This document shows, piece by piece, positions 1 to 31,863 of a DNA stretch of 33,236 nt. The stretch is from Treponema sp. (GTDB taxonomy: Bacteria; Spirochaetota; Spirochaetia; Treponematales; Breznakiellaceae), in the NCBI GenBank assembly GCA_009782495.1, contig WRIX01000004.1, positions 18,033 through 51,268 on the forward strand, written 5' to 3'. The translations under genes were made by a program, and so were the position numbers. Position 1 is the stretch's first letter. The number at the start of each line of letters is the position of its first letter. The notes below the pieces were generated by a model. That model saw only the letters and a list, made by a program, of their open reading frames with translations, ran no database searches and had not been told where the DNA came from.

Positions 1-3000
1 TCGACAAATTCAGGACAGATCGATTTATTAGGAACTGCCGGAATTACCGGTTCAGGTAGTATTAACACCGGAGCCGGGGCGGCAATCAATTTAACGTCAA
101 GTGGCGGAGCAGTGAACGAAAGCGGTATATTGACGGGAACAGCGCTAACGGTAAATGCTAACGCCGGTATAATACTTGAAGGAAATAATCTAATAAACGG
201 AACGGCCTCGTTAAATAATACCACTGGATTGCCACTTGCAGGAGATATTAGTTTTAATAATACAATTTCCACTGGGACACTTCAGCTAACAGCAGCCAAT
301 AATACCGCAAATGGGAATATAGGAGTAACTAACAAAAATCCTCTTACTACAGGTGTTATTATTGCCGGTTCTGTGGGTTCACGCGGTAATGTGGATATTA
401 CTAATGAGAATACCATTATTGTAAACGGAAATATAACAGCGGACGAAGTAACGCTAATAACTGACAATGACTCCGGCGATTTAATTAATAACATAACGAT
501 TTCTGATGATATTAGCGGAATTGTTTCTAAACTTACCATTATTTCCGGTGATCTATATGGCGCATATGATTACTGCGGGACAGTTACTATTAGCAATCCT
601 ATTACCTTGACTGATGGTGCGGCAGAAATTGAAATATCTGCAGGTGTAATTACCGGCAGTGGAAACCTAAGCGCCGCCGGCGGTGTTTCTTTTTTACTGG
701 ATGAGTTCAATACTTACACAGGAAGTATTTCAGATTCATTTTCCATTGGGCCGCGCCACAGAGCTGATCTTATTTATTATACAACACTCCCATCTCTCCT
801 GGGTACTCATCTTCCTGCTGATGCAGTTCAGGTTTCTTCCAGCGCTTATAGCGGTGATTTTAATTTTACAGATTTCACTAATGTGTATCTGGTTAATGTA
901 AGTGATAGTAATGTTGGCAGAACTGTGACAGTAAACGCCTCAGGTATTATTGAATTTTACGATAGTTATACATACAATCCTGTTACTCCGAGTCCCAATC
1001 CTCATTTAAATTTAACTGGCAATGGAGGTATACGAACTTATCACCCTGATACAATTACTCCTGGTACTACTGTAATTAATATTAATACTCCTTTTACAAC
1101 AAATACTCCATTAGACGCTACACAGCCTCTTACAATTTCCGCCGGACACCTTTCAATCAGTGCAAATGGAATTATCTTGGGAGGTAATGTAAATGGGGCT
1201 CCCGCTAGCGTCCATAACCTTCTCCTTGATACGACCAGAGCTGCTGGGTATGCTATTAATGTTGTAGGAAATATAGGTAATGTCAACCCTTTGGGTAATA
1301 TTGAAGTCCGAAGTATAAATCCAAGCAATACCACTACACCCACAATTTCCTGGGGGGTATATTTTGGCGGTACGATAACAGCAAGAAGTTACAAACAAAC
1401 CGGAACAGGTGGGACAGGCGGGAACGGTTCAACTTACATTAATGGAACTCAGAGTTACAATCCTGTAAGCGGCAACGCATTTGAGTTTGAAGGATATGAT
1501 TTAACTGTCATCAGTACCATGGGTACAACTGGCACTCCAATAGGCCCCATCTTGATTAACAATGCGAATGTTGTCCAGTTTGATGACGAAATCTGGGCTG
1601 GTAGTTTCACTCAAAGTGCCGCAAACATAACAACCGGTGCTACAAGTTTTGACAGTACCCAAACTTATTCCGGGAATTTTACCTTTACCGGAAGAGTATT
1701 AAATGTAAATAACAGTCTTAATACCGGCGGGGATATTACCATAACCAATTCCGGAACGTTTACCAAAGGTGTATCGACAACACAACATATTGTTGCAACC
1801 GGAGTATTTTTGCAGAATGGTGCGGGAGAAAACACTATAGGTGCAAATATTACCGCCAGCGCGATTACATTTAGCAATCTTGTTGAATTGAGCGCAAATG
1901 CTGTATTTGCAACTACAGGTAACGGTAATATTGTCTTGTCTGGAAACAGTACAGGGACAGTAGCAACTGCCGACACTTCAGGTGCAGACAGAAATCTGAC
2001 GCTCACTGCCGCAGGAACTGGTACTATTACCTTGGGTTCGCCATCGGCCCCATCAACAGGAAATACTGTTGACCTGGGAACCGGTACCTTGACTGTAACG
2101 GCATCTACGGTAACAACTGCAGCTGCTGTACCGCTGAACATCGGCACCGGAATAACCACTGCAACCAACCTGACCATCAACAACGGAACTAGTTTTGATC
2201 CCAAAGAGGTACTGACCGTGTGGGGAGATACTACCAACAACGGTACGATTAATGCGGCGACTCCTTCTTCTGGCAACGACAGTATTTTCTTTAACGGAGA
2301 TTACAATGGTTCAAGCGGTACAATTGTTGATACTGGCAACTCAAATAGAATAGTTTTTAACGGTGAAATTGCTGCAGTAGGAACCTTTAACAACACTACC
2401 GATACACTAGTGTTAAAAGGGCAGTATACCCCATCTGGAACCGATCAAGAGTTCAGCCACAATACAAGTACACCTTTATATATTGTTAGAATAGAGAACA
2501 GAAACAGTACCAGTACAGGTATTAATACCGTTCGATTGGAGTCCGATGTTGTTCAAACGGACAATGGCACAGGAGGGGAGTTGTATTTTGACATGACTCC
2601 AAATACATCGGCCGGCCCCAAGCTCTACACCACTGCCAATTACACATGGCGAATGGGAACAGGTACACCTCCTACAACTCCATCTCCCCCAGCGCCTTTT
2701 GGTTATGGCTTTGTAAATTATAAAGGTGAAGTTGTTTTTGATCCGGGGAGCGAGCTTCATACTCAGGATTTTCTGGCTCCTCAAACAGGGTCGCCATCGC
2801 CATACACCTATACCTTTAATGGGCCCGCATCAATATGGGCTGCCGGAAATGTTGATATTCGGGATGATAATCCCGGCAATGTTTTTATTACCACCGCACC
2901 AGATGAACTGAATATCTTTACCCTGGTTATGAACGGCGGAGGGTCTGTGCAATCCCTCCATTGTGAGCAGATAGGTAGTACCTCACATGCGGCTATCGGT

Positions 3001-5772
3001 TCGCTCCGCCTTACAGGATCTGCCCAGGTGAGAATAATAAACAGCATCGAAATTCAGGGGGATGTGCTTATTGAACCTGGTACGACTTTATTTGCAGGAT
3101 ACCCTGGAAACAGTATTACTATTCATGTTACTGGCTACCATAATCCAGCCGCCAAAATCGATCGGGGAGCAAATTGGTTCCAAACACTTCCTGTTGTAGT
3201 GGATCCCGGCCCGCCGGAAGAAGTTGTTTTAGGTATTGGACCAAGTGGTACTTTTGTACCATATAACAGTACAGTAGAATTCGGTTCCAAAACTTCAACC
3301 ATTCCTCCAAGTTGGGATGGGAGGACATTTAGAATAAGCGGAAATACAACCTGGTATAATTTATTCTGTTATGAACCCAAGGCGGACTTGCTCTTTTCCA
3401 ATTATGGTGTGACCGATTTGCATGAACATACTATACATAATAGATTTGAAGTGGAGCCCCGGCGCGCTAACGGTGATCTTTACGGTTCGGCTGGTGATAT
3501 CACCAATATGATTAAAATTTCAAGACTTACCTTTACACAACTTACACCTGTTACCAATAATGTAATCGGAATTTATGGTCCTCCTACGATTCCAAATAAT
3601 GATTTCTGGTACTTTAGGCTGGGTCCCGGAGCGGAACTGTTCTTTAATTTTGTGTTTCTTAATTACAGCTATTCACAGCGGCGCATTCCTCTTCCTTACG
3701 GGGATCCGGCGCAATTTTTGGTAATTGCCACCCCTTACTATAATCGTGATCCGGATAATTCCAATCTGTACGATCCCCGGGTTCCGGGCGGCAACCTCAT
3801 CACAGCAGGAGAATATTCCTATTATAACGTTAACTGGTTTGTGGCCAATAACTTTTTCTACAGTTTTACGGAAGATTCCACCGGAAACGGCAAAATTGAC
3901 CGCATCCGTGCACAGGCTGCCTTTGAACTTATGGACGGAAGTGATACATCACCGGAAACGGGCTACGAAGCATTCCAGTATTTTAAAGTAATCGTGGACG
4001 GATACGAAATTGATACATCCCGGGGTTATAACAATACAGGTTATGACCGGGTACCGGGCGCCACAGACTGTATCTATATATATGTTAAAGAAAAACCTTC
4101 TTCCGATGGCGGGGAAACCCCAACCTGGCGAATAGAAAGAAACCAAAGCCTTATGGATGCTACTACTAAATCCATATTCATTGGAGAGCCTGCTCACGGT
4201 GATCATCAAACATCCGATACGGTACCTCCCAGAATCAATTATGCCTTTGCTCTGCCTGGACATACGGAACAGTTTTTCCAGTTATCCGAACTGGTGAACA
4301 ACGGTGATATTACGTCATCCATAAATAGTGGGACTTTGACGCCTCTTGGGCGGGGAGAATTCCTTGTCGATATTTCGGCTTATGACCTTAACCAACTTGT
4401 GACAGGGAACGAGTCTTTTGACCTGGATAATGTACGGGATAGGGCGGGTTTTATCAGAGACAGACGATCCGAGCCGGGAGTCCTCTATGCATATCAGTAC
4501 CCTTCTCCCAAATATCCGAAGGACTGGGATTATTCGGATTATATAGAAGTTCGGGGCTGGTACGATCAGGTCAATATGGGGAACAGTGTTTCGTTTATGC
4601 CGATTACAAATGACCCGGGCGATCTGCCTCCGATCAGGGAGTGGTATTATGATGCTGCTAACCCCAATAATAGCAGTTATCCCTCTTACTCTTCCTCCTT
4701 TGTTGGACCCGATCCGAAACTGGGAAACAGGATGTTTGGAAAAACAAATGGTTTAACCGCTGCTGCTGCTGATTATGGAAAGGGACGGCACCGGGTAACG
4801 GACATGCTTATTTCCATTCCGCCCAATAATCTGGGTGATACCGCACAACATGATTATTTCTTTATTTGGCCTCTTTGGGCAAAATATGCATCTGAGGGTT
4901 CCAATCTTGATGATTTGCTTGGGAATACACTGCATCCCGGTTACGGTTATATGGGACATGACGGCAGTAACATTATTGATTCCTCGATTATCTGGGATTT
5001 TACCGGCAAACGTTTTCTGGAAAGGGATGATATTGTAATGCAATCCAGGATAAGCGATGGTTTTTCTGCCGCAGTCTCTCCCGTAACAATATTCTATAAT
5101 ACCGGTCCTTCCGATTACTACAGAGCTACAACTGTTCATGGTTCCGTAGGTCTTTGGCATCCGTATCAAGGTCTGTTGACTCCGCCGCTTTCTAAATCAT
5201 ATATTGAATTCTTTAACATGGTTCCCTATACCTTTCCTAATAAGAATAGCCCTTCTCCTGATGACGTTGGGAATAATTTGTTCAACCATTCCTTTGATAA
5301 GTCTTATTTTCCCGGCAATGCTACAGTAGAATTCTATTATCATCTGGATGTGAGTGATGAGAATCTTCTGGCAGCCCGCCTTGATGTACCGCCGGGAACC
5401 GATCCATCTACATTAAAAGGTCAACCCTGGTACCGCTGGGTTCGGCCCTTCACCTTCGGCATCCACGACATTACCCGACAGCGCGGCGGTGTAACGATAC
5501 TTAACAATGTAATCAACTCCAACAACCGCGAAAGGGTTTATGTGGATTATAAACCGGAAAGCTCAGGCCGGGTTACAATTCAGGTCTTTACCCTGGACGG
5601 AAACCTGGTCAAAATTCTAAAGAGGGGATCTGAAACCGCAGACGGTAAATACCACCGTGTCTCCTGGGACGGTACCAATGAGGGCGGCCGTCCTGTAGCA
5701 CGGGGCATGTACTTTATCCGCGTTGTAGCGCCCGGCATCGACGAGATCAGAAAGGTTATGGTGGTTAAGTAA
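1..5772 (+). CDS. Large repetitive surface/adhesin-like protein (5' end outside window), N/T/G-rich beta-helix-type repeats followed by a FlgD-Ig-like C-terminal domain
   Basis: Frame 1 is open from base 1 (STNSGQIDLLGTAGITGSGSINTGAG...) through the listed ORF to tandem TAA TAA stops; repeated GDITITN/GNIxxxN-type strands; C-terminus GRVTIQVFTLDGNLVKILKRG...HRVSWDGTNEGGRPVARGMYFIRVVAPGIDEIRKVMVVK is FlgD/T9SS-CTD-like. Confidence 0.85.
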   Translation, partial: STNSGQIDLLGTAGITGSGSINTGAGAAINLTSSGGAVNESGILTGTALTVNANAGIILEGNNLINGTASLNNTTGLPLAGDISFNNTISTGTLQLTAANNTANGNIGVTNKNPLTTGVIIAGSVGSRGNVDITNENTIIVNGNITADEVTLITDNDSGDLINNITISDDISGIVSKLTIISGDLYGAYDYCGTVTISNPITLTDGAAEIEISAGVITGSGNLSAAGGVSFLLDEFNTYTGSISDSFSIGPRHRADLIYYTTLPSLLGTHLPADAVQVSSSAYSGDFNFTDFTNVYLVNVSDSNVGRTVTVNASGIIEFYDSYTYNPVTPSPNPHLNLTGNGGIRTYHPDTITPGTTVININTPFTTNTPLDATQPLTISAGHLSISANGIILGGNVNGAPASVHNLLLDTTRAAGYAINVVGNIGNVNPLGNIEVRSINPSNTTTPTISWGVYFGGTITARSYKQTGTGGTGGNGSTYINGTQSYNPVSGNAFEFEGYDLTVISTMGTTGTPIGPILINNANVVQFDDEIWAGSFTQSAANITTGATSFDSTQTYSGNFTFTGRVLNVNNSLNTGGDITITNSGTFTKGVSTTQHIVATGVFLQNGAGENTIGANITASAITFSNLVELSANAVFATTGNGNIVLSGNSTGTVATADTSGADRNLTLTAAGTGTITLGSPSAPSTGNTVDLGTGTLTVTASTVTTAAAVPLNIGTGITTATNLTINNGTSFDPKEVLTVWGDTTNNGTINAATPSSGNDSIFFNGDYNGSSGTIVDTGNSNRIVFNGEIAAVGTFNNTTDTLVLKGQYTPSGTDQEFSHNTSTPLYIVRIENRNSTSTGINTVRLESDVVQTDNGTGGELYFDMTPNTSAGPKLYTTANYTWRMGTGTPPTTPSPPAPFGYGFVNYKGEVVFDPGSELHTQDFLAPQTGSPSPYTYTFNGPASIWAAGNVDIRDDNPGNVFITTAPDELNIFTLVMNGGGSVQSLHCEQIGSTSHAAIGSLRLTGSAQVRIINSIEIQGDVLIEPGTTLFAGYPGNSITIHVTGYHNPAAKIDRGANWFQTLPVVVDPGPPEEVVLGIGPSGTFVPYNSTVEFGSKTSTIPPSWDGRTFRISGNTTWYNLFCYEPKADLLFSNYGVTDLHEHTIHNRFEVEPRRANGDLYGSAGDITNMIKISRLTFTQLTPVTNNVIGIYGPPTIPNNDFWYFRLGPGAELFFNFVFLNYSYSQRRIPLPYGDPAQFLVIATPYYNRDPDNSNLYDPRVPGGNLITAGEYSYYNVNWFVANNFFYSFTEDSTGNGKIDRIRAQAAFELMDGSDTSPETGYEAFQYFKVIVDGYEIDTSRGYNNTGYDRVPGATDCIYIYVKEKPSSDGGETPTWRIERNQSLMDATTKSIFIGEPAHGDHQTSDTVPPRINYAFALPGHTEQFFQLSELVNNGDITSSINSGTLTPLGRGEFLVDISAYDLNQLVTGNESFDLDNVRDRAGFIRDRRSEPGVLYAYQYPSPKYPKDWDYSDYIEVRGWYDQVNMGNSVSFMPITNDPGDLPPIREWYYDAANPNNSSYPSYSSSFVGPDPKLGNRMFGKTNGLTAAAADYGKGRHRVTDMLISIPPNNLGDTAQHDYFFIWPLWAKYASEGSNLDDLLGNTLHPGYGYMGHDGSNIIDSSIIWDFTGKRFLERDDIVMQSRISDGFSAAVSPVTIFYNTGPSDYYRATTVHGSVGLWHPYQGLLTPPLSKSYIEFFNMVPYTFPNKNSPSPDDVGNNLFNHSFDKSYFPGNATVEFYYHLDVSDENLLAARLDVPPGTDPSTLKGQPWYRWVRPFTFGIHDITRQRGGVTILNNVINSNNRERVYVDYKPESSGRVTIQVFTLDGNLVKILKRGSETADGKYHRVSWDGTNEGGRPVARGMYFIRVVAPGIDEIRKVMVVK

Positions 5773-19687: not shown

Positions 19688-20236
19688 ATGATTACATTAT
19701 TTACAGAAAGACTGCTGATAAGGGATTATGTAATTGATGATTTAAATAATCATCATAAATTATTATCCGATGCTGCTGTAATGTATTATTTACCGGATAT
19801 AAAAACAGAAACTATTGAGCAATCAAAAGAAAATTTGTTAAAAGTTATTAATGATCAGGGATCGAATGAAAGGAAATTGTATCATTTTGTAATTGAAAGC
19901 AAAAATACAAATGAATTTATCGGCGGTATTGGTTATACGGTATTGGATAATACACCTTATGGGAAATTGGTGCATGTGGGATATTTTATTTTAAAACATT
20001 ATTGGAATAAAGGATATACAACAGAAGCATTAAAAAGGATAATAGAATTTGCATTTAATGAAAACAATGTATACAGAATACATACAGGGTGTTTAAAGGA
20101 CAATGTATATTCAGAAAAGATAATGCAAAAATGCGGTTTTATAAAAGAAGCGGAATTTATTGAATATGCATTTCATGATGGAAAATTAAAAGACAGAGTA
20201 GAATACAGAATGTTAAAAAATGACCTTATAAAGTAA
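19688..20236 (+). CDS. GNAT N-acetyltransferase, RimJ/RimL-like
   Basis: MITLFTERLLIRDYVIDD...GGIGYTVLD...GYFILKHYWNKGYTTEALKRIIEFAFNENNVYRIHTGCLKDNVYSEKIMQKCGF. Confidence 0.9.
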   Translation: MITLFTERLLIRDYVIDDLNNHHKLLSDAAVMYYLPDIKTETIEQSKENLLKVINDQGSNERKLYHFVIESKNTNEFIGGIGYTVLDNTPYGKLVHVGYFILKHYWNKGYTTEALKRIIEFAFNENNVYRIHTGCLKDNVYSEKIMQKCGFIKEAEFIEYAFHDGKLKDRVEYRMLKNDLIK

Positions 20237-20999
20237 CGCAAGGTACAATAACAAGCTTTGGGCAGCGTTTTTTGATTTCGCGGGCTTGTTTTTTGGGAAT
20301 TCCATCATCGGTAATAATAATGTCAAACTCTTCGGTTGCAGCATGGCGGGCAAAAAAACGCTTGCCAACTTTTGAAGAGTCAGCAAGGAGCACCGTTGTT
20401 TCTCCCGCTTCCAGCAAGGCCCGCTTAACTATGGCGTCACGGGAGGAAGGGACTGTTGCTCCGTAGTCCGGGTCCAGTCCCTGGGTGCTGATAAAGACAA
20501 AGTCTGCATTAAAATTCCGGTAAAAGTCTGCGGTCATGGTACTGACCACTCCTGCGGAAAGCTCATCGTATTCTCCGGGGGCCAGGATAAGCTTTATTTT
20601 CCTGTTCCCGTGAAGATAGCCAACGGCAGACCATGCTCCGGTAACAATTGTTATGTTGTTGTTTTTAATGCATTTAAAGATTTCGGCAGTACTGGTTCCG
20701 CAGTCAACGATGATCGTATTGCCGTCTTTAATAAGCGCTGCCGCCGCTTCTGCAATATTATGTTTTGCTGCAGCCATGATGCCCTGCTTAAGGGCAAAGC
20801 CCGGCTCAACGCCGGCTCCCCGGTTAAGGTAAGCGCCGCCGTAGTTAGTCGTAACCAGCCCCTGGCTTTCAAACAACTGAAGGTCGCGTCTAATGGTCAT
20901 TGTGGAAACATTAAAACGCTCTGCCAGATTGTTTACTTCAACAGAGCTTAATTCTTCGAGCAGCTGGTAAATCTCCATTCTTCGCTGGGCTGCGTTCAC
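20226..20999 (-). CDS. DeoR-family transcriptional regulator
   Basis: RRMEIYQLLEELSSVEVNNLAERFNVSTMTIRRDLQLFESQGLVTTNYGGA; IVDCGTSTAEI; LLADSSKVGKR. The track start (21239) overlaps the activase; GTG at 20999 is more plausible. Confidence 0.9.
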   Translation of the reverse strand: MNAAQRRMEIYQLLEELSSVEVNNLAERFNVSTMTIRRDLQLFESQGLVTTNYGGAYLNRGAGVEPGFALKQGIMAAAKHNIAEAAAALIKDGNTIIVDCGTSTAEIFKCIKNNNITIVTGAWSAVGYLHGNRKIKLILAPGEYDELSAGVVSTMTADFYRNFNADFVFISTQGLDPDYGATVPSSRDAIVKRALLEAGETTVLLADSSKVGKRFFARHAATEEFDIIITDDGIPKKQAREIKKRCPKLVIVPCVTL

Positions 21000-21000
21000 A

Positions 21001-21795
21001 TTACCCTCCAACTGTAACAGTAAAGCCCCTGCGTTCGGCTTCGGCAACTGCTTCTCCGGTAATTTCTTTCGGGCAGTCTTTTGCCCCTTCCATAGGATCG
21101 GGTATGCCAAGAGCCTTGTATTTCCCTGCGCCCAGTCTGTGCATGGGAAGTATATCGACTTGGCAGATCGCTTTTCCAAGGGACTGTACAAAATCAAGTC
21201 TGTTTTTAAAATCATCTCCGTCATTATAGGCCGGAACAAGTATCAGCCGTATACAAATGCTTTTATTCATGCTGGCCAGGCGTTCAGCATTTTTCAGGAT
21301 AAGCGAGTTGGAAACACCGGTACACCGGCGGTGTATTTCTTCATCAAAAGCTTTTATATCGTACAAAATCAAATCGGCGTTTTCAGCGGCTGTTTGAAGC
21401 ATTTCCCACGGTACATTTCCTGCGGTATCCAGGGCAATGCGGATGTTTTCCTTTTTCAGAAGAGCTGCCGTTTCCGCAGTAAATTCACTTTGCAGAGCCG
21501 GTTCGCCTCCGGAAAACGTGACACCTCCGCCGGATTGATCGTAAAACACTTTGTCCCGAACAAGCTTTTGTACCAACTCTTGTGGGGTAATTGTCTGCCC
21601 GATTGTTTCGGTTGTGTCCTTGTAATAAAGGGTTTGTTCTTTACTTTCGATAAGTTCGGGGTTTGCGCACCACAGGCAGCGCAGGTTGCATCCGGCACAA
21701 AAAACAGTGGAGCGTATTCCCGGACCGTCCTTTGTCGAGTACCCCTGTATTTTGGAGATAAACCCTGCATGGTTGTTTTGACCAGGTGATTCCAT
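21001..21795 (-). CDS. Glycyl-radical-enzyme activating enzyme (radical SAM)
   Basis: GYSTKDGPGIRSTVFCAGCNLRCLWCANPE (CX3CX2C), VFYDQSGGGVTFSGGEP, DTAGN, LYDIKAFD. ATG at 21795, directly after the GRE stop codon. Confidence 0.92.
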   Translation of the reverse strand: MESPGQNNHAGFISKIQGYSTKDGPGIRSTVFCAGCNLRCLWCANPELIESKEQTLYYKDTTETIGQTITPQELVQKLVRDKVFYDQSGGGVTFSGGEPALQSEFTAETAALLKKENIRIALDTAGNVPWEMLQTAAENADLILYDIKAFDEEIHRRCTGVSNSLILKNAERLASMNKSICIRLILVPAYNDGDDFKNRLDFVQSLGKAICQVDILPMHRLGAGKYKALGIPDPMEGAKDCPKEITGEAVAEAERRGFTVTVGG

Positions 21796-21796
21796 T

Positions 21797-24208
21797 TCAG
21801 TTCCAGTTGAGTTCTGTCCGTTCAATGATTGCATCCTGGGCTTCGGGCATAAGAGTGGAAAAGAGTGCGCAATAACCCGCAACCCGGACCATAAGGTCAG
21901 GATACAATGCGGGATTTTCTTTTGCAGCGCGGAGCATTGCAGAATCCGCAATGTTAAACTGATTGTGAAAAATGTTTTTGTGTCTTCCTGCTTCGATAAA
22001 GCAGGCGAATTTTTCCAGGTTTTCTTCCCCTTCCAGAGCGCCCGGAGAGAACCGCATATTAAGAAGCTGTCCTCCCGCGATACGATCGTTTGGTAATTTG
22101 GAGATTGAATTAATTACCGCAGTCGGTCCTTCTTTGTCCGCACCCAGGCAGGGTGAAGCCCCTTCGTTAAGAGGCTTCCCGGCGAGCCGCCCGTCGGGTG
22201 TTGCGCCGACATCAAAGCCATTGGGAACATAGCTTGTGATATTGGAAGTAGACATCGTGTATCCGCATCCAACAGGGCCGCATCCTGCCCTGTCGGTTTT
22301 GTAATCAGGCAGCAATTCCAGATAGGAATTGTATACATCGGCGACAATCAGATCCGCATAATCGTTATCGTTGCCGAACTTCGGAGCATTGCGGCAAAGA
22401 GAACGGATTTTTTGTCCTTGAGGTCCTTCAAAGTTATCGTTGAGCGCTTGTTTAAGTTCTGCCATAGATAGCACTCTGTCTTCAAAAACAAGTTTTTTTA
22501 CCGCAGCAAGACTGTCACCGACCACTGAAGGGCCTATGTTGGACTGGCTTACATAGTCGTAACGTGCGCCGCCGTTTTTCAGTGTCTTTCCCCGTTCCAG
22601 GGCACAATCAACAGTTGCGGAAGCAAAAGGATCGGCATCGTGGTACTTAAGTGATTGATCGCAAATCAAGTCGCAATCAACGGCATGCTTAAAATAAAAT
22701 GCCAGTGCTTTTTTCCAGGCTGCCCATAATTCGTCATAATTCTGAAATTCCTTTTTTCCAAAATCAATAAGCTGTATTCCGCTTGCGGGGTCTTTTCCGT
22801 TGTTCAGCACTATCTCAAATACTTTGCCAAAGTTGATATATGTCATTCCGGTAGCCCGGTGTCCCCATTTGCCCGGTATGGCAGTTTCTACGCATCCCAT
22901 TGACGCATAGTCTCTGGCAGTTGCAAGATCCATGTCCAGCGTCATCATTGCCTTAACTACTACTTCGTCACAAAAAACAGAAGGCATACCAAAACCTTTC
23001 CTGATAAGCTTTGCGGAATCGAGGATCAGGCTATGAGGTGTCTTTTCCCAAAAACGTACACTAAGGTTCGGTTCGGGCAGACGTGAAAGACTCATTGCTT
23101 CCAGGCACAGGTAGGAGAGATCGTTGGTTCCGTCAGTTCCGTCGCTTTTAACGCCGCCGACCATAAGGTTGGAATAAAGTGGATATCCGCTCGAATACTG
23201 AGTATGATCCCAGGGACGAAGTTTATTAAGCGAATTGGTCATAATAAAAAAATGGGTAATGATTTCCAGCGCTTTTTCTTTGGATATAATTCCTTCGTCC
23301 AGGTCTTTTTTGTAATAAGGATAAATATACTGATCAAAGCGGCCGAACGAAAAAGAATGGCCGTTGCTTTCAATCATCATTAAGAGGTGAGTCATATAGA
23401 CGGTTTGTACCGCTTCGTGGAAATTACGTGCGCCTTCTTCCATAAAAGTTGTAAACATTACAGAAAGGTTTTGCAGTTCCGCTTTTCGTTTAGGGTCGTT
23501 TTCTTTTTCAGCGTCTGTTGCTGCCGCTTTTCCAAGACGTTTTATGTAATGGAGCGCACCTTCCATTGAAATAATTACGGCCTTGTAAAAATTTTTCTGT
23601 TCTGCGCTTAACCCATCCTGAGAAAGTTTTTTATTAGCAATTTCCGCAAGACCTCTGTAGCCTTCTTTTAGTACCAGACTGTGTTCTGGAATAATATGGC
23701 CGTCACCGGACATGGAAATACCGCCGCGGTGGAGTACTCCCTGTTTTTCCGCCTGGCGGTTTATGTCAGGCAGTTTGGACAGGACGTTATCTTTGTGCGT
23801 TTTCCCTTTCCAGTAACTTTCCAAAGCACGAAGCCGGCTTTTTGTATCGCCGGTTATCGTAAAATAATCACCGGAACGTCCTTCAAATTCATCCAGTTCT
23901 TTTATTACCCAATCAAACGAATATTCGGGAAAAACCGGTGCGGCAAAATTACATCGTGCCTGATTTCCCGCAATAAGGGTGTTTTCTTCTATGTATACAG
24001 TCATATTGGCAAGTATTTCGGCTAAAGCCCGGGCTCTGCGTATTACTATTGGTTCGCCTTCTGTCTTTTGGTAGCTGGCAGTGATAATTTCCGCCCGTTC
24101 CGGACAAATGCCGGGTTTTCTTGCGTTCATGTGCTGCTGCAAACGCTTGATCCTTTCAAAATCGCAATCGTTGTTTTGGGGAATAAAACTTAAAAGTTCG
24201 TCAATCAT
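21797..24208 (-). CDS. Glycyl radical enzyme, PFL2/dehydratase-like (GCVE active site), substrate unknown
   Basis: Active site YASMGCVETAIPGKWGHRATGM; SNGHSFSFGRFDQYIYPYY; C-terminal glycyl motif VRVAGYCALFSTL. Confidence 0.93.
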   Translation of the reverse strand: MIDELLSFIPQNNDCDFERIKRLQQHMNARKPGICPERAEIITASYQKTEGEPIVIRRARALAEILANMTVYIEENTLIAGNQARCNFAAPVFPEYSFDWVIKELDEFEGRSGDYFTITGDTKSRLRALESYWKGKTHKDNVLSKLPDINRQAEKQGVLHRGGISMSGDGHIIPEHSLVLKEGYRGLAEIANKKLSQDGLSAEQKNFYKAVIISMEGALHYIKRLGKAAATDAEKENDPKRKAELQNLSVMFTTFMEEGARNFHEAVQTVYMTHLLMMIESNGHSFSFGRFDQYIYPYYKKDLDEGIISKEKALEIITHFFIMTNSLNKLRPWDHTQYSSGYPLYSNLMVGGVKSDGTDGTNDLSYLCLEAMSLSRLPEPNLSVRFWEKTPHSLILDSAKLIRKGFGMPSVFCDEVVVKAMMTLDMDLATARDYASMGCVETAIPGKWGHRATGMTYINFGKVFEIVLNNGKDPASGIQLIDFGKKEFQNYDELWAAWKKALAFYFKHAVDCDLICDQSLKYHDADPFASATVDCALERGKTLKNGGARYDYVSQSNIGPSVVGDSLAAVKKLVFEDRVLSMAELKQALNDNFEGPQGQKIRSLCRNAPKFGNDNDYADLIVADVYNSYLELLPDYKTDRAGCGPVGCGYTMSTSNITSYVPNGFDVGATPDGRLAGKPLNEGASPCLGADKEGPTAVINSISKLPNDRIAGGQLLNMRFSPGALEGEENLEKFACFIEAGRHKNIFHNQFNIADSAMLRAAKENPALYPDLMVRVAGYCALFSTLMPEAQDAIIERTELNWN

Positions 24209-25064: not shown

Positions 25065-26660
25065 ATGAAAGAAACAACGTTATCAATTATCCCGCTGCCG
25101 GTTTCCTGCCAATTTACGGATGGTTTTTTTCTATCCCGGGGTCTGCCAACAATCAAGGGAGACGGAATGTTCCGTAACGAAATTGATACGGTTAATGGGC
25201 AGTTGCGTGAGGATCTGGAAAGAATGGGTCTTGCGTATATACAAGACAGGGAAGGCAAGGCTGTTATTTGTCAGATGGAAAACAACCCGCCAGCTTCGCC
25301 GGCGCCTTCTGTAATGCCCGCTTTACTTCTTAATAACGAAGGGTACAGAATTACTATTACAAAAGAGAACATTACCATTAACGCTGCCTCGGGCAAGGGC
25401 ATGTACCACGGACTGCAAAGCTTTCGTCAGCTTGTGTTGTCAGAGTACAAGGGCTTTCAGGAAGAAGGCCGTTTTAATGAATCAAATTTTTCGTTATCCT
25501 GCGGAGAAATCATCGACTATCCCCGCTTTCCCTGGCGCGGTTTTATGCTGGACTGTTCCCGGTATTTTTATTCAATTACTTTTATAAAACATATTATTGA
25601 TGTACTTTCGCTGCATCATATTAATCGCTTTCATTGGCATTTGAGTGACGATCAGGGCTGGCGTCTTCCCGTGCCGGAATATCCGCTGCTTACCGAAACC
25701 GGTTCCCTCAGGAAAGATCACAGGATGCCGTGGATTCCTTTTACCGGCGGTTTTTACAGCGAAGAAGCAATCCGCAATCTGGTTGAGTATGCAGCCAAAC
25801 GGCATATTGATGTAGTTCCCGAGATTGATTTGCCGGGCCATGCAAGCGCGATCCTGGCTGCTTATCCTGACCTGGGTTGTACCGGCGGGCCGTATCATGT
25901 CGAAGATCGTTTTGGTATTTTTGAAGATGTACTGTGCGCCGGCAATAATCGCATTTTTGATTTGATTGCCAAAGTTTTTGATTCCCTTGTCTGGCTTTTT
26001 CCGTCGTCCTATGTACATATAGGCGGGGACGAAGTGCTTTTTAACCGCTGGAAAGCCTGTCCCAAATGTCAAAAAAGGCTTTCTGAGCTTGGCCTTAAAA
26101 AACCCAAAGAGCTGCAAAGCTGGATTACCCAGCGGCTTGTAACAATGCTTGCAGAGCGGGGTAAAACTGCGATTGGCTGGGACGAAGTACTGGAAGACTC
26201 GCAGCAGTTCCGCCTTCCAAAAGAAACTGTGGTTATGTCCTGGCGGGGAAGCAAGGGAGGAATAGCGGCAAGCAAACGCGGCCATCCTGTGATCATGGTT
26301 CCCAATACAGAAGGGTGTTATTTGGATTATAAACACATTGACGATCCCGAAGAGCCCGGGCAAACGTTTAACATCATATCCACAGTTTACAAGAGTTACT
26401 GCATGAATCCCGTTGCACCGCAAATGACAGAAGAAGAGTCTTCGCAAATTCTTGGAGGGCAGTGCAATCTGTGGTCGGAGCTTATCTATGCGGGAAAAAT
26501 TGCCGAGTACATGATCTTTCCCCGGCTCTGCGCCGTTGCGGAGGCTGTCTGGACTCCTCCCGAAAATAAAAACTTTGATGATTTTTCCCGCCGTCTGATT
26601 ACACATCAAAAACGGCTGGATCTGCTCGGTCTGCTGCAGTACCGCGGGCCATTAAGATAA
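25065..26660 (+). CDS. Beta-N-acetylhexosaminidase, GH20, apparently cytoplasmic
   Basis: DYPRFPWRGFMLDCSRYF, INRFHWHLSDDQGWRLPVPEYP, VPEIDLPGHASAILAAYP, VHIGGDEV catalytic Asp-Glu, WDEVLE; no obvious signal peptide. Confidence 0.95.
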   Translation: MKETTLSIIPLPVSCQFTDGFFLSRGLPTIKGDGMFRNEIDTVNGQLREDLERMGLAYIQDREGKAVICQMENNPPASPAPSVMPALLLNNEGYRITITKENITINAASGKGMYHGLQSFRQLVLSEYKGFQEEGRFNESNFSLSCGEIIDYPRFPWRGFMLDCSRYFYSITFIKHIIDVLSLHHINRFHWHLSDDQGWRLPVPEYPLLTETGSLRKDHRMPWIPFTGGFYSEEAIRNLVEYAAKRHIDVVPEIDLPGHASAILAAYPDLGCTGGPYHVEDRFGIFEDVLCAGNNRIFDLIAKVFDSLVWLFPSSYVHIGGDEVLFNRWKACPKCQKRLSELGLKKPKELQSWITQRLVTMLAERGKTAIGWDEVLEDSQQFRLPKETVVMSWRGSKGGIAASKRGHPVIMVPNTEGCYLDYKHIDDPEEPGQTFNIISTVYKSYCMNPVAPQMTEEESSQILGGQCNLWSELIYAGKIAEYMIFPRLCAVAEAVWTPPENKNFDDFSRRLITHQKRLDLLGLLQYRGPLR

Positions 26661-27865: not shown

Positions 27866-30331
27866 TTATACGCTCATTATAACAGTAATCTGATTTTCGC
27901 TGCCGGCATTCTGAACGGGAATTTCCGCTCCCGTACTGCCGCAGGTAACGGCCTGGCCGTTTAACAGGCACTCCCCGACACCCTTGCTGATCCCCCGGGG
28001 ATTTTCCACGGTAATAGTATAAACCGCTCCGCGCCATACCCGGCGGACACTGAAAGAAGGCCACGAAGGGGGTATGCAGGGATCGATTTTCAGACTGTCA
28101 AAATCAGGCCGGATTCCCAGAAGATAGCGGGTGGCGGCAAAATAACTCCACCCTGCGGAGCCGGTCATAAAGGGATGGTGAGCCCTGCCAAATGCGCTGT
28201 GATCCGGTCCGGCGATAAACTGGCAGTACATATAAGGTTCCGCCTTGCGGACTTCGATCGTGTCGTTTTGATTGTAAGGACAAAGCGCATCGTAAAATTT
28301 CATTGCCCGGTCCCCCCGGCCAAGAATTGCCTCTGCAGCCCAGGCCCAGGGATTGGGGTGGCTGAATATGGCGGCGTTTTCTTTAAGGCCCTTGTAGACT
28401 CTGGTAACAAAACCAACTTCGTCATCCGGTTCGCTGTAGGCAGGATCGCAGAGTTTAAGACCGTAGGGAGTATAGAGGAATTGATCCACCGCATCCATTG
28501 CCGCCCTGCCATGTTCCGGCGAAGCAGCGCCGGAAAGAACCGCCCAGGTATTGGATTCCATAAATACCCGGCCTTCTTTGCAGTCCGGCGAACCTACGGC
28601 CCTGCCGGATGCGGTAAAACCTCTGGTATACCAGGAACCATTCCACAGTTCCCGTTCACAGCTTTCCCGGACTTTGGCTGCAAGTTCTTCATAACGGGCC
28701 GCATCCCGGCCCAGGCGATGGGCCAGGGCGCAGAAGTGGGTAAGAGCCCAGTGGTGGAGAAACGACACTATAGCGCTTTCACCGCCTCCCAGATTAAGGC
28801 AGTCGTTCCAGTCCGCCCGCAGCCCTTTGCAAATCCCGTGAGGGCCTATTTCTTTGGCGGAAAAATCAAGAATCCGCTTCATGTGATCGTAGACTGTTTC
28901 GTTTGTCCCCTCTCCGGTATCCGGATCAAAGGTATCCGCATAGGGATATTCTTCATCGGCAAAATCAAGGTCTCCGGTTTCCCGAATGTACTCTACTATA
29001 GAAGGAATTAACCACAGTGCATCATCGGCGCAGGTATCGGCAATTCCGTGAATCCGCTGAGATTTTGGTGGAAGGGGTACTACCGTAGGACTTTTAAAAG
29101 CCGGCGCAGCCTGTTTTTCAAACCATTCGGGGCTGAAAAGGTGAATGCCGAAACCGGCGCTGGTAAGTCCCTTAATAAGCTGGACAATCCGTTCCCTGCT
29201 TTTTTCCGGGTTTGAATGGGGGATCATCATGGCATCCTGAGCAGTGTCCCGGTATCCCAGGCCGGTCCGGCCTCCCACTTCGATGAACGAGGCAAAACGG
29301 GAAAAAATCACATTAATTTCCGCCTGATAGAGGTTCCAGATGTTAAGCATGGTGTTCATCCCTTTGTTGGGGGTGGAAACCGACAGCTTTTCCAGTTTTT
29401 GTTTCCAGAAATCTCCCAGGGCATTAAAGGCAGCATCTACCGCAGAAAATGCATTGCTTCCGTACTTGGTTCGCATCCTTTTTCCCGCTTCTCGGTTTCC
29501 TTCGCCCAAAAGAAAGATCAGCCGGGTTTCTTTGTCTGGTTCCAGTTCAACCGTCTGCCGGATGCCGCCGCAGTGGTTTCCTCCCAGTTCGGATGAACCG
29601 GAACAGGCGCCTTTTTCCACGGCAATGGGGTTGGTTTCGCTCCGGTAAGGGCCGATAAAGGCATCCCGAAGACAGTCGAAGCAAGAGGGATCATTGGAGC
29701 TGTCTGTACACTGTCCGTTACAATCCGCTGCAGAGGTAAAATACTGGAAACCTTCGGCTTCGTAAAATAAATCTACTTCTATAATACCGTCTTTGTATGA
29801 TGAGCCAGAGGAATAGAGGCTCATTTGTAAATTCTGATTGTCAATCTGAATATGATGGAAGGAAAATTCCGCATAGCCGAACACACTGAGTTTTCGTTTG
29901 CGATCCGAATTGTTGCGGAGCCGGACATCCCAAATTTCTACCGGGTCTTCCAGTGGTATAAAAAGGGTCTGTTCCCCCCGAATGCCATTATATTCACACT
30001 GATATTTAATGTACGAAAGACCGTGACGGCAGGTATAACGGGCCGAATCGGGGCTTTTGCCCACCGGCTGCCAGGAAAGTGTCCAGTATTCTCCGCTGTC
30101 ATCGTCCCGGATGTAGACATAATGACCGGGCCTGTCCGCTGGGATCCCGTTTGGCCGGAAACGGGTAATCCGGTGGAATTCCGGGCTTTTATAAAAAAGG
30201 TAGCCTCCGGCAGTGTGGTTAAAAACCCCGCATAGTTCCTTAACGCCGATATAGTTAGTCCATGAAACAGGTACATCAATCCGGTCTATTACATATTCCT
30301 GACTGGTTTGATCAAAATAACCGTATTTCAT
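27866..30331 (-). CDS. chbP: N,N'-diacetylchitobiose phosphorylase-like GH94 protein
   Basis: MKYGYFDQTSQEYVIDRIDVPVSWTNYIG...RFASFIEVGGRTGLGYRDTAQDAMMIPH...CKGLRADWNDCLNLGGGESAIVSFLHHW...GFVTRVYKGLKENAAIFSHPNPWAWAAEAILGRGDRAMKFYDALCPYNQND. This resembles the characterised Vibrio enzyme as recalled. Confidence 0.9.
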   Translation of the reverse strand: MKYGYFDQTSQEYVIDRIDVPVSWTNYIGVKELCGVFNHTAGGYLFYKSPEFHRITRFRPNGIPADRPGHYVYIRDDDSGEYWTLSWQPVGKSPDSARYTCRHGLSYIKYQCEYNGIRGEQTLFIPLEDPVEIWDVRLRNNSDRKRKLSVFGYAEFSFHHIQIDNQNLQMSLYSSGSSYKDGIIEVDLFYEAEGFQYFTSAADCNGQCTDSSNDPSCFDCLRDAFIGPYRSETNPIAVEKGACSGSSELGGNHCGGIRQTVELEPDKETRLIFLLGEGNREAGKRMRTKYGSNAFSAVDAAFNALGDFWKQKLEKLSVSTPNKGMNTMLNIWNLYQAEINVIFSRFASFIEVGGRTGLGYRDTAQDAMMIPHSNPEKSRERIVQLIKGLTSAGFGIHLFSPEWFEKQAAPAFKSPTVVPLPPKSQRIHGIADTCADDALWLIPSIVEYIRETGDLDFADEEYPYADTFDPDTGEGTNETVYDHMKRILDFSAKEIGPHGICKGLRADWNDCLNLGGGESAIVSFLHHWALTHFCALAHRLGRDAARYEELAAKVRESCERELWNGSWYTRGFTASGRAVGSPDCKEGRVFMESNTWAVLSGAASPEHGRAAMDAVDQFLYTPYGLKLCDPAYSEPDDEVGFVTRVYKGLKENAAIFSHPNPWAWAAEAILGRGDRAMKFYDALCPYNQNDTIEVRKAEPYMYCQFIAGPDHSAFGRAHHPFMTGSAGWSYFAATRYLLGIRPDFDSLKIDPCIPPSWPSFSVRRVWRGAVYTITVENPRGISKGVGECLLNGQAVTCGSTGAEIPVQNAGSENQITVIMSV

Positions 30332-30437: not shown

Positions 30438-31784
30438 ATGAATAAAACTGCAAAGTCACTTATCGGTGTTCTTCTTGTCCTGTTGCTGGCGGCAAGCTTT
30501 GTTGCCTGCGGCGGCGGTAAAAAAGACGATGGCATTATTGAACTCACGGTCTTAAACTACATGGACCTGAGCAACCCCGGTTCTATTAACGAAATGAACG
30601 ATGTATGGGAGCGGTTCGAAAAGGCTAATCCGGATATTAGGATTGTCCGTGAAGACCTTTTTGACGAACCATTCCATCAAAAAACGGAAGCTTATGCTGC
30701 TGCCGGCCAAATTCCCGATGTTATCCAATGCTGGCCTTCCGGACGTTCCACCACGCTTCATACCCAACGCCTTTTGAAAGATTTGGCGCCCTTTGTTGCC
30801 AGAGACGGTTTGGCTTCCCAATATACCCCTGTATCTCTGGATCCTTCACAACAGGCAGCAGGCTATCTGGGGATGATCACCCGCGGTATGACAGCAACCA
30901 ATGCGGTTTTTGTAAACATGGAAGTGCTTAATGACTGCGGACTCCAGCCCGCCAAAACCTATTCCGAGCTAATAGCCCAGATGCCGATCCTCAGGGCCAA
31001 AGGGTATGATACGCTTGTAATGTCCACAAATCAAACGTGGGTAATGCAATCCTGCCTTTTCTCTGCAATTGCGGGGCGTTTCTGCGGCGAGGGCTGGGAT
31101 CAGAGGATCCACTCCGGTCAGGCAAAATTTACCGACCCGGATTTTGTGGCAGCCCTGGAATTTGTTAAAAGGATGTATGACGATGGCCTGCTGACTCAGG
31201 CAATGTTTGCTATTGATTACACAGCTGCACCTGCAGACTTAGCCAACAATAAGGCAGCCTACTTAATCGACGGAGACTGGCAGACCGGCGCCTTTATTTC
31301 TACCGGTATGGACTTGCTTACTCCTGAACAACAGAAAAAACTCTTCGTTACCGTATTCCCCGAAATTGATATTCCCGGAGTAAAGATACCGGCCCGGACC
31401 AATACTGTAGTACTGGCCACCGGTTGGGGTATGAACGCCAATATTCCTGCTGGTTCTGCAAAAGAAGAAGCTGCCTGGAGACTGGTTAAATGGCTGGTCG
31501 GCAAAGAATGTGTAAGCTTCTTCCTTGAAAACGGAACCTTTGCTGCCGGTTCCAGGACCGATATTGATGCATCAAGCCTTAAGCTGGAACCTGCGCAGAT
31601 AGCAACCTCAAAACTTGGCGGTGAATATGACGTATCTACGGTAGTTATTGATGCCGCCTTTGAAGGGCCGGTTTACACCCCGCTTAACGATGGCCTGGCA
31701 GCCATTGGTATGGGAACCATGACCCCTCAGCAAGTAGCCTCCGTTACCCAGGCTGCATTTGACAACTGGAAAGCCAGCCAGTAA
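30438..31784 (+). CDS. ABC transporter extracellular sugar-binding lipoprotein (family 1)
   Basis: Lipoprotein signal LLAASFVACGGGKK; LTVLNYMDLSN...VWERFEKANPDIRI...AAGQIPDVIQCWPSG...YLIDGDWQTGAF. Confidence 0.94.
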   Translation: MNKTAKSLIGVLLVLLLAASFVACGGGKKDDGIIELTVLNYMDLSNPGSINEMNDVWERFEKANPDIRIVREDLFDEPFHQKTEAYAAAGQIPDVIQCWPSGRSTTLHTQRLLKDLAPFVARDGLASQYTPVSLDPSQQAAGYLGMITRGMTATNAVFVNMEVLNDCGLQPAKTYSELIAQMPILRAKGYDTLVMSTNQTWVMQSCLFSAIAGRFCGEGWDQRIHSGQAKFTDPDFVAALEFVKRMYDDGLLTQAMFAIDYTAAPADLANNKAAYLIDGDWQTGAFISTGMDLLTPEQQKKLFVTVFPEIDIPGVKIPARTNTVVLATGWGMNANIPAGSAKEEAAWRLVKWLVGKECVSFFLENGTFAAGSRTDIDASSLKLEPAQIATSKLGGEYDVSTVVIDAAFEGPVYTPLNDGLAAIGMGTMTPQQVASVTQAAFDNWKASQ

Positions 31785-31838: not shown

Positions 31839-31863
31839 CCCATTGTTCAGGGGCGGTGTGTGC

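Follow-up and report, generated by a model that had tools for sequence, protein, structure and literature searches.

Gene content of the locus

The window, that is the whole stretch of 33,236 nucleotides from Treponema sp. which was analysed, contains on its reverse strand an open reading frame (21797-24208) encoding an oxygen-sensitive glycyl radical enzyme (GRE) of 803 amino acids. This gene and the features discussed with it are the following:

21797..24208, reverse strand: GRE, 803 aa, sister clade of YbiW; Cys439, Glu441, Gly778
22862..22897, reverse strand: active-site motif GCVETAIPGKWG, residues 438-449; begins the loop KWGxRxTGM, common to YbiW
21872..21889, reverse strand: glycyl radical loop VRVAGY, residues 774-779; RVAGY holds Gly778
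21001..21795, reverse strand: GRE activase, radical SAM, 264 aa from the inferred ATG; Cx3Cx2C in CNLRCLWC
20226..20999, reverse strand: DeoR-family regulator, GTG start inferred; closest NCBIfam model AgaR, below cut-off
25065..26660, forward strand: GH20 beta-N-acetylhexosaminidase, upstream neighbour on the opposite strand; context only
27866..30331, reverse strand: GH94 N,N'-diacetylchitobiose phosphorylase; 1068 bits to 1v7v against 466 for the best cellobiose phosphorylase
30438..31784, forward strand: ABC sugar-binding protein, context; followed by a permease at 31843

The activase most plausibly starts at the ATG at 21795, one base past the GRE stop, which gives 264 aa compared with 316 aa for the raw open reading frame; the GTG start of the DeoR gene lies one base past the activase stop. 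Because of these single-base gaps, the three genes form a tight operon, as proposed in an earlier sequence-only reading, whose range (21001-24208) comprises the GRE and its activase, with the DeoR gene just outside it.

The GRE matches the Pfam domains PFL-like (638 bits) and Gly_radical (87 bits). Its membership of the GRE superfamily is shown by a PFL-like barrel and a glycyl-radical domain with RVxGY (Pfam; Foldseek TM 0.88-0.90), the active-site Cys439 and the cognate radical SAM activase (21001-21795); the GCVE and VRVAGY motifs named in the earlier reading are confirmed. The active site has one Cys, in GCVE, and the Cys-Cys pair is absent. PFL activity is rejected on this ground and by the score against TIGR01255 (151 bits, cut-off 994), so the enzyme had rightly been assigned to the dehydratase/lyase type. 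CutC, HypD, HpsG/HpfG and isethionate lyase share the superfamily and a similar overall fold; CutC, HypD and HpsG/HpfG are rejected at 472-529 bits against NCBIfam equivalog cut-offs of 1000-1100, whereas isethionate lyase reaches 364 bits against the window GRE, compared with 587 for YbiW. TIGR01774, a broad NCBIfam subfamily, is the one model whose cut-off is passed; all equivalog cut-offs are missed, in agreement with the statement that the GRE had no assigned substrate.

Among those ORFs of the window that were scanned (part of the total), no shell protein, aldehyde dehydrogenase or phosphorylating partner (PTS or kinase) was seen; the first two absences had already been noted. The claim that there is no substrate-specific partner holds in the window for fructose-6-phosphate aldolase (FSA) and PTS genes, but the nearby GH94 protein is a chitobiose phosphorylase, and in relatives FSA, NagA, NagB and PTS genes adjoin the GRE. 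Concerning an operator common to the GRE operon and GH20 or GH94 in the window, shared words of 9-10 bases only and no convincing motif were found. At 112-5772 (forward strand) there is a protein of 1886 aa, in which Pfam recognises nothing but an FlgD Ig-like domain at the C-terminus. The genome of the window also contains a second, very distant GRE (L002; G000 contig 123, about 1871-3847) with its own activase-like neighbour and the motif GCLENTMVGND.

Phylogenetic placement

Relatives were sought by a scan of one genome per species and by whole-genome searches. Six were found, which are 83% (L097/L098), 76% (L137), 73% (L003 and L099) and 69% (L004, interrupted in its assembly) identical to the window GRE. 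Below these there is a gap, followed by YbiW-type proteins at about 40% identity; L138, at 44%, is an intermediate or outlier. In the best-supported tree, the window clade and L138 are sister to the YbiW clade and L141 (support 100/99). In the PDB, YbiW proteins score highest by sequence (587 bits), ahead of glycerol dehydratase 1r8w (565 bits), diol dehydratases and PflD; the identity is 39% to YbiW and 38% to glycerol dehydratase. The window GRE lies outside the YbiW clade on a long stem (0.56) and is a member of an uncharacterised sister family of YbiW. The sequence-only reading had named clustering inside a characterised subgroup as the outcome that would count against it; the position found is instead beside the YbiW clade, with the long stem and fixed substitutions of its own.

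Members are found in Bacillota, in Actinomycetota and in the phylum to which the window belongs, which makes past movement of the gene between lineages probable. In one genome (G400; L089, L090) a window-type GRE occurs together with a YbiW-type one, whose gene has one in-frame TGA in this assembly.

Pocket residues and predicted structure

Comparison of fixed residues gave seven that both the window clade and the YbiW clade have and that no other GRE in the comparison has, among them G163, H335 and S339. S339 corresponds to Phe333 of glycerol dehydratase and G163 to its Asn156, which we take to be a substrate contact in that structure. An eight-residue signature (G163, H335, S339, K447, R451, M455, D526 and S554) was obtained from the shared seven by leaving out I657 and including K447 and R451, which belong to the KWGxRxTGM loop; its basis is the alignment and not contacts with a ligand. 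Seven or eight of these residues are found in 20 GREs (the two clades, L138 and L141) and at most three in 74 others; the window GRE has all eight and PflD has none, though its substrate is the epimer of that of YbiW. Since the signature is common to both clades, at most partly present elsewhere and absent in PflD, the pocket of the window GRE is, judging from the alignment, of the YbiW type. The RxGxGPxG insertion is also shared with YbiW.

There is also a difference between the two clades: 42 positions are fixed differently, some of them in pocket-forming stretches (F412, H450, S561/V562, N656 and Y660). Two further residues are found in all window-clade GREs: Met323, which is Lys in YbiW, PflD, GDH and HypD-like proteins of the compared alignment, and Thr430, which is Asp or Glu in the other GREs there.

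Among the PDB hits of the predicted window model, the highest query-normalised TM-score is that of 8id7 (title: YbiW with 1,5-anhydroglucitol-6-phosphate, AG6P), with TM 0.90 and rmsd 3.3; the AlphaFold model is a modest one (mean pLDDT 77, 9 aligned sequences), in which the pocket is unreadable around 334-341, 452-454 and 656-703.

Gene neighbourhoods

Amino-sugar genes stand near the GRE in five of the six independent window-clade loci, and those of the kinds searched in none of 11 YbiW-clade loci (Fisher p about 0.001, an optimistic value, as the clade itself supplied the reference genes and the loci are of unequal length). Four of the six have PTS genes close to the GRE, and in two (G399 and G405) FSA is just upstream of it. 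A ROK sugar kinase, present in 9/11 YbiW-clade loci, is absent from those of the window clade, where amino-sugar and PTS genes take its place.

Looking at each locus separately, G405 contains the single run nagA-nagB-FSA-GRE-activase-deoR, upstream of which are HPr, mupG, murQ and a lactose/cellobiose-family PTS. G400 has nagA, a mannose-family PTS and nagB-GRE-activase-deoR-glmM. In G399, FSA-GRE-activase-deoR is found with enzyme I, a mannose-family PTS and a SIS isomerase; no amino-sugar gene of the searched kinds is beside the GRE there, and an FrlD-like kinase and an FrlC-like epimerase, judged by reading the sequences only, are near the operon. G255 and G385, the genomes of the two nearest relatives of the window GRE, have a divergent GH4 at the GRE locus, and G255 also a MupG-like gene, a GlmU-like gene and a PTS. 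A BadF-type kinase gene, with a MurNAc/GlcNAc kinase as best PDB match, lies 15 bp upstream of the GRE in G954. A PTS or kinase gene, a candidate for phosphorylating the sugar, is found near the GRE in relatives.

An upstream block, TATCATAATTTAwCTTGACTwTATGwTAAATGATGTTATAyTATA, is shared by L003 (7173-7217, forward strand) and L099 (16583-16627, reverse strand), standing before FSA in G399 and before nagA in G405; because FSA and nagA share this promoter block, it supports nagA-nagB-FSA-GRE as one unit in G405. Searches for FSA and transaldolase found neither in the genome of the window (86% complete), in G255 (83%) or in G385 (68%), which counts against one uniform pathway across the clade. 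Taken together, the neighbourhoods of the window clade suggest amino-sugar catabolism, for example of sugars from chitin or the bacterial cell wall.

Activase and a homologue with an altered glycyl loop

Most activases of lyase-type GREs carry a ferredoxin-like insert, whereas the PFL activase does not. The window activase (21001-21795) is without the entire insert, and those of the 83% identical relatives keep it with only part of the usual cysteines; the window activase has lost its ferredoxin insert.

L138 (9346-11769, forward strand; G1165 contig 29) is a GRE homologue of full length, placed as sister to the window clade, in the gene order deoR-PfkB kinase-GRE-FSA. Its glycyl loop is RVAAY (Gly to Ala; codons GTC GCC GCC TAC) and its active site GCVTP (Glu to Thr), with the Cys retained; no activase was found within the 20-kb locus. 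As predicted from these residues, this protein, a single example, cannot carry the usual glycyl radical. First-look GRE candidates number 17 in G1165 and 21 in G1192, against at most six in each other genome searched with them; in G1192, two GREs (L140 and L142) lie in tandem.

Proposed reaction and alternative substrates

YbiW-type lyases act by a radical mechanism, and an FsaA/FsaB aldolase step follows YbiW and PflD; in agreement with this step, fsaA adjoins ybiW-ybiY in E. coli and fsaB is close to pflD. PflD (8id0), a GRE of like chemistry on a separate branch of the tree, is also encoded beside PTS genes in E. coli. YbiW and PflD cleave AG6P and 1,5-anhydromannitol-6-phosphate (AM6P), respectively, to 1-deoxyfructose 6-phosphate after phosphorylation by a PTS (review PMC12441222); the primary YbiW paper is Ma et al. 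(J Am Chem Soc 2024;146:26187), as referenced in PMC12507026.

Based on the shared signature and the sister relationship, we lean towards the window GRE being a C-O lyase that opens the ring of a phosphorylated 1,5-anhydrohexitol. The activase neighbour, and the FSA neighbour in some relatives, are further likenesses to the YbiW system; the PDB sequence matches, the 8id7 hit, the PTS genes in four of six loci and the amino-sugar kinase-like gene of G954 also count in favour. The activase would generate a radical on Gly778, which would pass to Cys439; the thiyl radical would then abstract the C2 hydrogen of the ring-closed 1,5-anhydrohexitol 6-phosphate. Glu441 would accept a proton from the C2 heteroatom, cleavage of the C1-O5 bond would open the ring, and Cys439 would return a hydrogen to C1. 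The predicted product, a 1-deoxy-ketose 6-phosphate, could be split by an aldolase of the FSA kind into hydroxyacetone and glyceraldehyde-3-phosphate. Counted against the lyase proposal are the 39% identity to YbiW, the 42 fixed differences, Met323, the missing FSA or transaldolase in the genome and in those of the two nearest relatives, the 38% identity to glycerol dehydratase, and the lack of a PTS gene among the scanned ORFs of the window. The carbohydrate-derived substrate suggested earlier is plausible, and the wider range of polyols, amino acids or sugar acids is narrowed by the YbiW sisterhood and pocket signature to the prediction of a phosphorylated 1,5-anhydrohexitol; the observation of the sequence-only reading is sound, and its interpretation is narrowed, not overturned.

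AG6P itself and an amino-sugar derivative are sub-cases of the lyase proposal and not exclusive of it. That the GRE is a divergent AG6P lyase with the substrate of YbiW, its amino-sugar neighbours being mere other sugar-use genes, is a tentative option: the eight-residue signature is fully common with YbiW and FSA adjoins the GRE in two relatives, but the stem of 0.56, the 42 fixed differences, the presence of both GRE types in G400 and the missing ROK kinase argue against it; the substrate is probably related to AG6P yet not identical. An amino-sugar anhydrohexitol, such as 2-amino-1,5-anhydroglucitol 6-phosphate, is possible at a similarly low level of confidence. NagA would deacetylate, the GRE would open the ring, the imine would lose ammonia and FSA would split 1-deoxyfructose 6-phosphate. 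The run from nagA to deoR in G405 beside murQ-mupG-PTS genes points in this direction, as do nagB-GRE and nagA in G400, the MurNAc/GlcNAc-kinase-like gene in G954, the MupG-like gene in G255, the chitobiose phosphorylase and GH20 in the window, and the lack of such genes in the 11 YbiW-clade loci. However, NagA and NagB also function in the ordinary use of GlcNAc, G399 is without the searched amino-sugar genes beside its GRE, the neighbour comparison relied on reference genes chosen from the clade itself, and we know of no abundant natural 2-amino-1,5-anhydrohexitol. The complete route, in which the GRE releases ammonia from an amino-sugar 1,5-anhydrohexitol 6-phosphate with NagA acting before it and FSA after it, is doubtful; no description of a radical route for amino sugars or of amino-sugar GREs was found in the literature searched.

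The same amino-sugar neighbours, and the FrlD-like kinase and FrlC-like epimerase of G399 (sequences read only), would also fit an enzyme whose direct substrate is one of the common amino-sugar phosphates (GlcN-6-P, MurNAc-6-P or an Amadori product), attacked through another kind of radical elimination. This is improbable, as the same loci encode NagB and MurQ, which already perform these reactions, and the pocket signature matches an anhydrohexitol-phosphate enzyme. Even less probable is that the GRE is a dehydratase of glycerol or 1,2-propanediol. The B12-independent dehydratases (1r8w, 5i2a and 9rco) share the C-x-E site, the His/Ser pocket (NGHS or SGHS) and the fold; 1r8w is the best non-YbiW sequence match (565 bits) and dehydratases are among the top Foldseek hits. 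Nevertheless, key substrate-contact positions are replaced in the window GRE (Gly for Asn156, Ser for both Phe333 and Tyr640, and no equivalent of Asp447 in the loop that follows GCVE), on which ground this activity is rejected, and the window GRE branches outside the dehydratase clade. The preferred reading is the ring-opening lyase of a phosphorylated 1,5-anhydrohexitol.

Significance

According to reviews, many abundant GREs are without known function (PMC11574389). An orphan group of GREs is now placed beside a characterised enzyme, which gives a short list of testable substrates. The clade also provides two natural experiments: an activase minus its ferredoxin domain and a sister protein minus the radical glycine. 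If the substrate is an amino-sugar derivative, the family would provide an anaerobic radical pathway from the sugars of chitin or peptidoglycan to glycolysis.
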